DNA from: an uncultured Lachnospiraceae bacterium
GTDB taxonomy: Bacteria > Bacillota > Clostridia > Lachnospirales > Lachnospiraceae
Assembly (NCBI GenBank): GCA_946407725.1
Contig: CAMJPM010000007.1
Span: 1 to 64,000, forward strand
Direction of reading: 5' to 3'
DNA length: 64,000 nt
Under the pieces are notes generated by a model. That model ran no database searches. It was given only the letters and a program-made list of their open reading frames with translations, and had not been told where the DNA came from. Positions 25,150 through 36,254 of the stretch are shown here, piece by piece. Position numbers and translations under genes: made by a program. How positions within the stretch are numbered: the first letter of the stretch is position 1; each line of letters opens with the position of its first letter.

Positions 25150-26067
25150 TTATTTAAGCTTGATCCTGGGATCAATAAACGCATATGCTATATCTACTAT
25201 TACGTTCATCATTATTATGAAGCAGGCAAGGAAAATGGTGGTGCCCATTATCAGTGGATAGTCCCTTGAAGGAATGGCACTCACGAATTCATGTCCCAGC
25301 CCCGGGATCGTGAATATCTTTTCAATAATGAAGCTTCCCGTCATAAGGGCTGCCAGCAGCGGACCGAGATAGGTTACCACAGGAAGAATGGCATTTCTCA
25401 GGGCATGCTTAAAAATAGCCTTAAAGGTGCCCACACCCTTTGCCCTGGCCGTCCTCATATAATCCTGGCCTATTACATCCAGCATGGAGGATCTCATAAG
25501 TCTTGCTATATAACAGGTGGGATAAAGGGACAGGGCTATCACCGGCATTATATAGCTTTGCGGCGAATCCAGCCCCAGTGAAGGCAGAAGCTTTAATTTT
25601 ACCGACAGGAAATACATCATCAGGGTCGATGTAAGGAAGCTCGGTATCGCAATACCTGCGGTAGAAAAGACGATAATAATATTATCAAGGGTTTTTCCCC
25701 TTCTGTAAGCCGCCACGGATCCCAGGGGAACCCCTATCATCACGGCAACAAGCACTGCAAGGCCTCCCAGTCTCGCAGAAACCGGGAATTTATTGCCTAT
25801 GATGTCCGTAACGGTGAAGCCCCTCTTTTTTATGGACAGACCCATATTACCGTGGAGAAGATCCCCCATATAGGTCAGATACTGCATAAACAAAGGCTTA
25901 TCCAGCCCGTATTTTGCCTCCATTGCGGCCTGTGCCTGTGGAGTTACGGCCTTTTCGGATAAGAAGGGACCGCCGGGCACCAGGTTCATTATGAAAAATG
26001 TGAGAGTTGCCACTATAAAAGCCGTAAGAACTCCCATAAGAATACGCTTCACTATATATTTAAGCAT
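25150..26067 (-). CDS. oppB: Oligopeptide ABC transporter permease OppB
   Basis: FFIMNLVPGGPF; DYMRTARAKGVGTFKAIFKHALRNAILPVVTYLGP. Confidence 0.93.
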   Translation of the reverse strand: MLKYIVKRILMGVLTAFIVATLTFFIMNLVPGGPFLSEKAVTPQAQAAMEAKYGLDKPLFMQYLTYMGDLLHGNMGLSIKKRGFTVTDIIGNKFPVSARLGGLAVLVAVMIGVPLGSVAAYRRGKTLDNIIIVFSTAGIAIPSFLTSTLMMYFLSVKLKLLPSLGLDSPQSYIMPVIALSLYPTCYIARLMRSSMLDVIGQDYMRTARAKGVGTFKAIFKHALRNAILPVVTYLGPLLAALMTGSFIIEKIFTIPGLGHEFVSAIPSRDYPLIMGTTIFLACFIIMMNVIVDIAYAFIDPRIKLK

Positions 26068-26182: not shown

Positions 26183-26277
26183 CATTGTACCGCATAAAAA
26201 ACAACTAATAATTTTATTCACTAAATAAGAAACTGTCAACTATTCATGCAATCGTGGGATGATTTCGATGGTTTCGA

Positions 26278-26422
26278 TGATGGGCAGGATAAAAGTGCTA
26301 TGCGGCTTTGCCGCATATGCAATTTGCATAATAAACCGTGCAGGCAAACGAGTTTGCCTGACCGGTTTTTATGCAAATTCGCCAAGGCACTTTGTGCCTT
26401 GCGACTTTTATCCAGCCCATCT
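26278..26422. ncRNA. Candidate structured element with four-way-junction fold (RNA or DNA cruciform; transcription not shown)
   Basis: Outer arms gatgggcaggataaaagt (26278-26296 region)/acttttatccagcccatc (26404-26422 region, one mismatch) enclosing hairpins 26300-26316, 26321-26379 and 26383-26401. Confidence 0.5.
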
Positions 26423-26502
26423 CCTGCCCATCTTGCGACTTTTGTCCTGCCCATCTCCTGCCCATCTTGCGACTTTTGTCCTGCCCATCTCCTGCCCATC
26501 TT
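26401..26502. repeat. 34-bp tandem repeat x3 (gcgacttttgtcctgcccatctcctgcccatctt)
   Basis: Copies at 26401-26434 (2 substitutions), 26435-26468 and 26469-26502 (identical); partial fourth copy follows. Confidence 0.95.
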
Positions 26503-26642
26503 ACGTTTTGTCCCACCTATCTTATAATAAATTCAAAAATTTATATTAAATAATAGCATATTGCATAAAAATATTGTATAATCAGATTGAAATTTCATAC
26601 TAAACCCCAAAAGGAATGTATGTTAATTGAAGGGAGAAAAAT

Positions 26643-27869
26643 ATGTTAGCAGCACTCATGCCTCTTTTTGACGAAAAAATGACCGTAAAAGCCTATTCGG
26701 TTTTTTCCGAAAAGGAAAACCCTTTCCTCAATCCGGATACCGCAGTAGGCGCAAAATATAACGGCGTGGGAAGGATTTCCGGTCTGGAAGTTGTAGGCAG
26801 CATGGGAGCAGCCATTCTGGACGAAAAGGATGTTTTTGTTCCGGTTGACAATATCGCCATATTCACTGATATTGCCGCCCAGTGCACAGTTCCGAAAAAC
26901 AGGGTCGTGATCCTTTTAGATAAGTCGGTCACACCTGATAACGACTATGTAAAGAGGATAAAACTCCTGAAGGCCCAGGGCTTCCGCTTCGCCATCAGGA
27001 AACTTACGGTGGATCTCTTTGAATCCTACAGGCCCATCCTTACCGAATGCGAGTATGTACTTCTGGATCACAAAAAAATAGTGATCTCCAAGGCAAAGAT
27101 CTATTTCTCAAAGCTCTATCCGGATATCAAGCTTGTGGCAGTAAATGTAAACAGCCAGGAGGATTACTCCACCTTAAGCGCCGACGGGAAATACGACCTC
27201 TACGAGGGGGAATTCTTCAGAATCCCCGTCACCAACAGTGAAACTGAGGTTAACCCCCTGAAGATAAACTATATTGAACTCTTAAATGTGGTAAACGCTC
27301 CGGACTTCGACCTGACAGATGCCGCCGACGTAATCGGACGGGATGCGGGTCTCGTGATCTCCCTTCTGGAGATAGTCAACCATATCGCCATAAACTCCGA
27401 GATCACATCTGTCCGCCACGCAGCCGCCATGCTGGGACAGAGGGAGCTGAAGCGCTGGATAAATACAGCCGTTACCAAGGAACTCTGCGCAGACAAGCCC
27501 AGCGAGATCACCAGAATGTCCATGGTAAGGGCAAAATTTGCGGAGAACCTGGCTCCGGTATTCGGAATCGGCGGCTTCGCTTCCGAGCTTTTCCTTACAG
27601 GCCTCTTCTCCTGTATAGATGTAATGCTTGACAAACCCATGGATGAAGCCCTGAAAATGCTCCATGTGGCCAAGAATATAAATGATGCCCTGCTTAACGG
27701 CAAGGGTGATCTGGCACCGGTCATTGATTTTATCCGCTTCTATGAAAATGCGGACTTCATTGAAGTATGCCGCCGCATGGTAGTGGACGATATTGACATG
27801 GATACGGTCTACAAAGCCTACCTCAGTGCCTTGAGCTGGTACAGGGATCTGTTTATCAAGAATAAATAA
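26643..27869 (+). CDS. Degenerate EAL plus HDOD domain signalling protein
   Basis: N-terminal EAL-like fold without EAL catalytic motifs (YDLYEGEFFR), HDOD region DVIGRDAGLVISLLEIVNHIA...AAAMLGQRELKRWI; RBS gaaggga. Confidence 0.82.
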   Translation: MLAALMPLFDEKMTVKAYSVFSEKENPFLNPDTAVGAKYNGVGRISGLEVVGSMGAAILDEKDVFVPVDNIAIFTDIAAQCTVPKNRVVILLDKSVTPDNDYVKRIKLLKAQGFRFAIRKLTVDLFESYRPILTECEYVLLDHKKIVISKAKIYFSKLYPDIKLVAVNVNSQEDYSTLSADGKYDLYEGEFFRIPVTNSETEVNPLKINYIELLNVVNAPDFDLTDAADVIGRDAGLVISLLEIVNHIAINSEITSVRHAAAMLGQRELKRWINTAVTKELCADKPSEITRMSMVRAKFAENLAPVFGIGGFASELFLTGLFSCIDVMLDKPMDEALKMLHVAKNINDALLNGKGDLAPVIDFIRFYENADFIEVCRRMVVDDIDMDTVYKAYLSALSWYRDLFIKNK

Positions 27870-36150: not shown

Positions 36151-36240
36151 TCCATCGTATTATATCGTAAACTGCCGTATTTTATCATAATTTATCGTAT
36201 TTCTCTTTATTTTTAATAATTTATCGTAATTTGTTGTATT
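36151..36240. repeat. 10-bp phased degenerate repeat array (TTTATCGTAT consensus)
   Basis: CGTA/CATA cores at 36156, 36166, 36176, 36186, 36196, then CGTA/TGTA at 36225 and 36235. Confidence 0.75.
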
Positions 36241-36254
36241 TTGACCAATTTCTC

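Follow-up and report, generated by a model that had tools for sequence, protein, structure and literature searches.

A cloverleaf-forming, MITE-like repeat of Lachnospiraceae and its fold in other genera

An uncultured Lachnospiraceae bacterium carries, between two genes, an inverted repeat that encloses three hairpins and whose 3' arm recurs downstream with a period of 34 bp. The feature lies in the first 64,000 nucleotides of contig CAMJPM010000007.1, which we analysed as one stretch (hereafter the window), and it raises the question of whether such a structure is an RNA, a transcription signal or a piece of mobile DNA. A first-pass annotation, made from the sequence alone, had left the choice between a structured non-coding RNA and a cruciform or REP-like mobile palindrome, with switchable pairing. 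In our view the feature very probably belongs, as a single copy, to a family of MITE-like, non-autonomous transposable elements of Lachnospiraceae that are only about 143-200 bp long.

The window copy and its tandem array

The outer inverted repeat that the first-pass annotation had described, with its single mismatch, is present once its edges are shifted by 1 nt (26279-26296 and 26404-26421), and the three hairpins within it (26299-26317, 26321-26379 and 26383-26401) complete the proposed four-way junction. This junction, at 26279-26421, is the minimum free energy structure of the RNA fold, and folding as single-stranded DNA gives an identical structure. Against shuffled sequence, a comparison that the annotation had suggested, it is strongly favoured: the RNA fold of 26278-26422 reaches -85.4 kcal/mol versus -39.6 +/- 4.0 in 200 shuffles (z -11.5), none of which was as stable. 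The second of the two covariance models considered below (R2) matches the window at 26277-26423, with 146 bits on the + strand and 138 bits on the - strand. Two small open reading frames cross the element; neither has a Pfam match, and a coding function was rejected, in line with the earlier view that no credible CDS covers the region. The features of the locus are as follows.

25150-26067, - strand: flanking gene, oppB-like oligopeptide ABC transporter permease (Pfam, BPD_transp_1)
26211-26239, - strand: sigma-70-like promoter, TTGACA-17-TAAAAT (11/12), facing the leftward oppB-like gene; weak, with 2 sites vs 1.7 expected in shuffles
26279-26421, no strand assigned: cloverleaf element, MITE-like, with four-way junction (fold z, covariance-model match, five long copies in its own genome)
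26279-26296, + strand: 5' terminal inverted repeat or outer arm, GATGGGCAGGATAAAAGT, which also ends most copies in G000 and G246
26299-26317, + strand: hairpin 1, TATGCGGC-TTT-GCCGCATA (fold; terminator-like on the - strand as well)
26321-26379, + strand: long interrupted central hairpin (fold; covaries in relatives)
26383-26401, + strand: hairpin 3, CAAGGCAC-TTT-GTGCCTTG (fold; terminator-like on the + strand)
26404-26421, + strand: 3' outer arm, ACTTTTATCCAGCCCATC, with one mismatch against the 5' arm
26398-26513, + strand: 34-bp tandem array of the element's 3' end and an 11-bp sub-repeat, TCCTGCCCATC (TRF: 3.5 copies, 94% matches)
26438-26455, + strand: second copy of the 3' arm, an alternative partner of the 5' arm (pairs with one G-U)
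26472-26489, + strand: third copy of the 3' arm, the preferred partner in the ensemble fold (pairs with one G-U)
26643-27869, + strand: flanking gene, HDOD-domain protein (Pfam)

The recurrence of the 3' arm in a 34-bp repeat is thus borne out by TRF, and the switchable pairing built on it is possible on paper: in the ensemble fold of 26278-26502, the 5' arm pairs with the third arm copy with p 0.93 and with the second with p 0.07. This choice of partner depends on the array and is confined to the window copy; no 34-bp array was seen in the other element copies inspected. The array and its switchable pairing look like a local amplification peculiar to this copy, probably incidental and without function. 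Once the element was in place, slippage between the 3' arm and the 11-bp sub-repeat, or unequal exchange between the two, may have produced the array. Elsewhere in the window, 36154-36251 holds imperfect AT-rich tandem repeats with periods of 20 and 29 (ATCGTATTTTATCGTAATTT).

Dispersed copies and target-site duplications

Other genomic copies and covarying structure in relatives, both named as checks by the annotation, were found in the bacterium's own genome and in other genera. The own genome (G000) holds five long copies, on contigs C7, C46, C95, C23 and C10, the last with a second, partial copy; there are also two collapsed copies (C42 and C2) and fragments on C1, C13, C19, C70 and C117. 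A pattern scan of GTDB genomes led to the goat-rumen Lachnospiraceae MAG RGIG3564 (G246), which has 5 full copies with 76-79% identity and compensatory changes.

Several of these sites are irregular. The collapsed copies (G000:C42:10695-10742 and G000:C2:58498-58545; 46-48 bp) retain the outer arms with a few inner bases between them, as a deletion between hairpins would leave them, and G000:C10:12546-12753 is a tandem pair of elements with one arm in common, its outer arms differing from those of other copies (e.g. CAGCCCGGGCAAAAGTGC). A distinct mini-hairpin at G000:C13:1001-1041 (L036) combines one element arm (GATGGGTAGGACAAAAGT) with a related arm, AGGGTAGGATAAAAGG, a motif with only one further occurrence (C47:5125-5139). 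A second hairpin family (GGGTAGGATAAAAGG) was suspected in the own genome and rejected, as it had only 2 sites. A gene for a ThrH-like phosphatase (MxIVCLDxEGVLVPEIWIAF) adjoins copies in both genomes, L004 (G000:C23) and L061 (G246:C137), on opposite sides, perhaps by chance.

When GATGGG/CCCATC is taken as the element end, the sequences flanking ten copies from G000 and G246 match at 49/70 positions for a repeat length of 7 and at 20-38% of positions at other lengths from 3 to 12. Perfect 7-bp target-site duplications (TSDs) flank the copies on C46 (ATAAGAA) and G246:C137 (ATTTTAT), and in G287, a genome from another genus, three copies carry the perfect 7-mers ATATCAT, AATAAAT and TTGTTAC. 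The version in G222 is longer (~200 bp), ends in TTTGAGTTTCC...GGAAACTCAAA and has clear TSDs of 8-10 bp; flanking repeats of 3-10 bp were present in 16/17 of its copies, with a mean of 7.4 versus 0.8 when flanks were shuffled among copies. An insertion sequence with the ends of the G222 or G287 version would be expected to carry TTTGAGTTTCCCCATTTTT or GATGTYGGGGTCAAAAG. No TSDs were detectable around the G354 copies. The window copy likewise has no clear TSD (TTTCGAT vs TTATAAT, 4/7, and only with the array included in the element); rearrangement of that side by the array may be the reason.

Direct repeats of this kind mark staggered-cut transposition. Their presence here, at 7 bp in three genomes (G000, G246 and G287) and 8-10 bp in a fourth (G222), therefore argues for a MITE-like non-autonomous element, and the copies are otherwise short (below about 600 bp), non-coding, multi-copy and dispersed, and are bounded by terminal inverted repeats (TIRs). 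A DDE-type transposase acting in trans would make the staggered cut in the target, after which the element would be inserted. Since TSD length and terminal sequence vary between genomes, two or more transposases may be at work, or the core may have been captured independently. No transposase or autonomous partner adjoins any inspected copy; the genomes with high copy numbers would allow the enzyme to be identified from the element ends. Half-copies in G222 and G287 were considered as the ends of an insertion sequence, that is, of an autonomous copy, and were rejected as truncations, deletion derivatives or contig ends. A phage or plasmid origin was also rejected: blastn gave no match for the window element, nor for the G222, G287 and G354 versions where tried, and scans of IMG/VR with TIR or core patterns returned nothing, or chance matches without the cloverleaf.

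Hairpin-rich intergenic sequences with loop inversions between copies also bring to mind REP-like elements, or single-stranded hairpin substrates of HUH/tyrosine transposases (RAYT or IS200/605), and the genome does hold one Y1 transposase. However, HUH single-strand insertion does not give TSDs of 7 and 8-10 bp, and in the one genome tested for Y1 the gene lies in an IS200-type locus without any element motif; we regard this origin as very improbable. The element, at ~143 bp, also differs from a 20-40-bp palindrome tied to a RAYT gene. The mobile palindrome of the first-pass annotation therefore stands, given the dispersed copies in its own and other genomes and the TSDs, whereas the REP assignment in its strict sense does not, given the TIRs, the TSDs and the lack of a motif-bearing Y1 locus in the own genome. 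The Y1 locus itself (G000:C107:5451-5807, L052) is a lone IS200-like transposase gene with strong flanking hairpins unrelated to the element, and a RAYT/IS200 link was rejected.

Copies lie outside open reading frames in 54/55 cases in three genomes, where they occupy convergent, divergent and co-directional gaps in both orientations, with no context fixed. This intergenic position would also suit a domesticated bidirectional terminator or insulator, in which each strand presents a GC-rich 8-bp hairpin followed by TTTT, and terminator-like matches do occur on both strands within the element (3 in the region vs 0.4 expected in shuffles). Against such a role, which we consider rather improbable, the T-runs are only 4-5 long, and the window copy and 7/22 of the G222 copies lie between divergent genes, with none of the 22 between convergent ones; moreover, termination would be a by-product of insertion and would not compete with transposition as an explanation. 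As a separate observation, 12/15 of the G222 elements in co-directional gaps are oriented opposite to their neighbouring genes.

A common fold and the level at which it is kept

Nucleotide search stays close to home: blastn with the window element found copies in its own genome only among 200 family members (199 others negative), and none in 47 other species of the genus. A first covariance model, built from ten copies, recovered single-copy relatives in two congeners with ~45-55% identity to the window copy. The second model, run on 397 Lachnospiraceae genomes, detected elements of full length in G354, G287, G222, G103 and G405 (E 1e-12 or better) and one doubtful element in G408, together with weaker unverified matches elsewhere; E <= 0.01 was reached by 33 genomes in 32 genera. 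Copy numbers from this survey are lower bounds, because seven candidates per genome were scored, and blastn places at least roughly 20-30 copies (again lower bounds) in each of G222, G287 and G354. An architecture of ~147 bp is common to the congeners and the other genera in these searches, which include Lachnospiraceae of gut and rumen, with a cloverleaf core made of an outer stem, an 8-bp hairpin, a ~28-bp hairpin and a second 8-bp hairpin; the claim that the whole set is one homologous family depends on a model built partly from its own matches.

For the test of covariation, 15 representatives from 9 genomes were aligned with MAFFT, without fitting to the structure. Paired cells made up 87.3% versus 65.8% in shuffles, 37/42 pairs had changed on both sides, and the covariation score of 0.584 (0.213 shuffled) was reached in 0/500 shuffles; the signal collapsed when partners were slid. 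The letters in common are few: AAAAG beside the junction and, in the long hairpin, TTTGC...GCAAA, with GGaAAgC...GCtTTcC at the tip of this hairpin. The unusual feature is a multi-branched fold that paired changes have maintained from genus to genus, although neither the letters nor even the terminal repeats are the same.

The survey also turned up derivatives and neighbours. Three G222 copies (L178 and the matches on G222 C3, C12 and C9) share an identical internal deletion, in which half of the central hairpin is lost and a ~102-bp form remains. In G287, many contigs (L187-L190, L208, L210, L211 and others) seem to stop within the element, frequently close to the tip of the central hairpin, which suggests palindrome assembly breaks; the draft assemblies studied here appear to break at these elements. 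The Clostridiales-1 RNA (RF01699) directly adjoins the element in G022 (L079:1593-1736) and is ~360 bp away from it in G405 (L145:2517-2674). Its overlap with the element was considered in G022 and rejected, as the well-aligned part is downstream of the element and only its first ~50 positions run into it.

What, then, keeps the stems complementary? A structured non-coding or cis-regulatory RNA (e.g. a 3'-end stabiliser or a switch), with the fold selected at the RNA level in every copy, would suit the extreme fold stability and the paired changes across genera. It would also suit the arms of G354, where the 4-8 bases outside AAAAG are copy-specific, yet complementary within each copy (0.71 vs 0.33 shuffled, maximum 0.47 in 2000 shuffles). 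Under selection on a single RNA strand, stems would be expected to accept G-U and to lose A-C. In consistently oriented copies, however, stem mismatches were 16/10, 39/48, 34/23 and 32/40 for G-U/A-C, 121 each in total, in alignments fitted to the model, a procedure that would favour G-U if anything. This equality favours a palindrome that is maintained as DNA over a one-strand RNA. Further arguments against an RNA are the variety of gene gaps and orientations noted above, the lack of any curated Rfam match to the element, or elsewhere in the window, above the gathering score, and the place of the window copy, which is upstream and not downstream of the leftward promoter-like site. The structured non-coding RNA of the first-pass annotation thus gained no positive support, and we think it unlikely. 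Hairpin loops read TTT in some copies and AAA, the reverse complement, in others, as expected of hairpin (arm) inversion.

Complementarity is more probably maintained by a process at the DNA level. This may be a constraint that acts on a cruciform or on a folded single strand, or it may be template switching from arm to arm. Template switching would copy one arm onto the other and would yield the within-copy complementarity of G354; cruciform selection and insertion into existing palindromes are alternatives for this pattern. The last of these, in which the core enters the centre of palindromes in G354 and perhaps elsewhere and the copy-specific arms derive from the target, is in keeping with G354 arms that show no relation from copy to copy (31% identity at offset 5-9) yet are complementary within each, and with the absence of TSDs there. 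Yet several G354 copies still have a GATGGTGAGGTC-like end in common, so their arms look like diverged TIRs, and copies in the own genome, G246, G287 and G222 have common arms and TSDs, which makes target-derived arms an improbable explanation.

We tentatively raise the possibility that the cloverleaf core is a mobile module defined by structure: a transposase, a host factor that binds or resolves junctions, or a replication step would recognise and preserve the folded DNA form, not the letters. Such a core might be carried between genera under different terminal repeats, with different transposases moving the same folded core. If the fold itself is preserved, the copies constitute a natural experiment on the copying, inversion and symmetry upkeep of palindromic DNA in bacteria.

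Comparison with known repeat families

Sequence is the usual basis for defining and finding MITEs. In this case the covariance model found relatives that nucleotide search had missed, among them strong matches over the full length in no fewer than five other genera. Among openly licensed papers, we found none on such an element in Lachnospiraceae.

The QMITE2 element of Coxiella burnetii is described as 150-190 bp long and intergenic, with TIRs, unique 7-11-bp direct repeats, a very stable fold and ~80 copies, and it occurs in a full form and in a small one that lacks both TIRs and direct repeats (PMC5896051). It resembles the present element in size, TIRs, direct repeats, stable fold, intergenic position and the coexistence of full and small versions, but differs in carrying a GTAG REP targeted by IS1111; unlike the present element, it is given no cross-genus covarying cloverleaf core in the part of that account on which we draw (PMC5896051). 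The ERIC/RU-1 and Correia/NEMIS MITEs are likewise intergenic non-autonomous repeats of about 100-200 bp with TIRs, stable folds and TSDs; however, they have 5'-TA-3' termini and long stem loops (PMC2229807), whereas the present element has TSDs of 7 or 8-10 bp and a three-hairpin four-way junction. The CIR repeats of Caulobacter and Brucella are similar in having a multi-armed fold kept between genera, but consist of two arms and a linker, without TIRs closing a junction, and have a GANTC motif in the loop (PMC2229807). REPs and BIMEs with RAYT share with the element the dispersed extragenic palindromes in mosaic and tandem arrangements, whereas REPs are 20-40 bp long and tied to tyrosine transposases (RAYT), and the present element has TSDs and no linked RAYT (PMC2817692, PMC3733652).

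By its features the element is a MITE, closest in anatomy to QMITE2 and, in its cross-genus multi-armed fold, to the CIR repeats. Within a known kind it is a new family, and the conservation of its multi-branched core is unusual.
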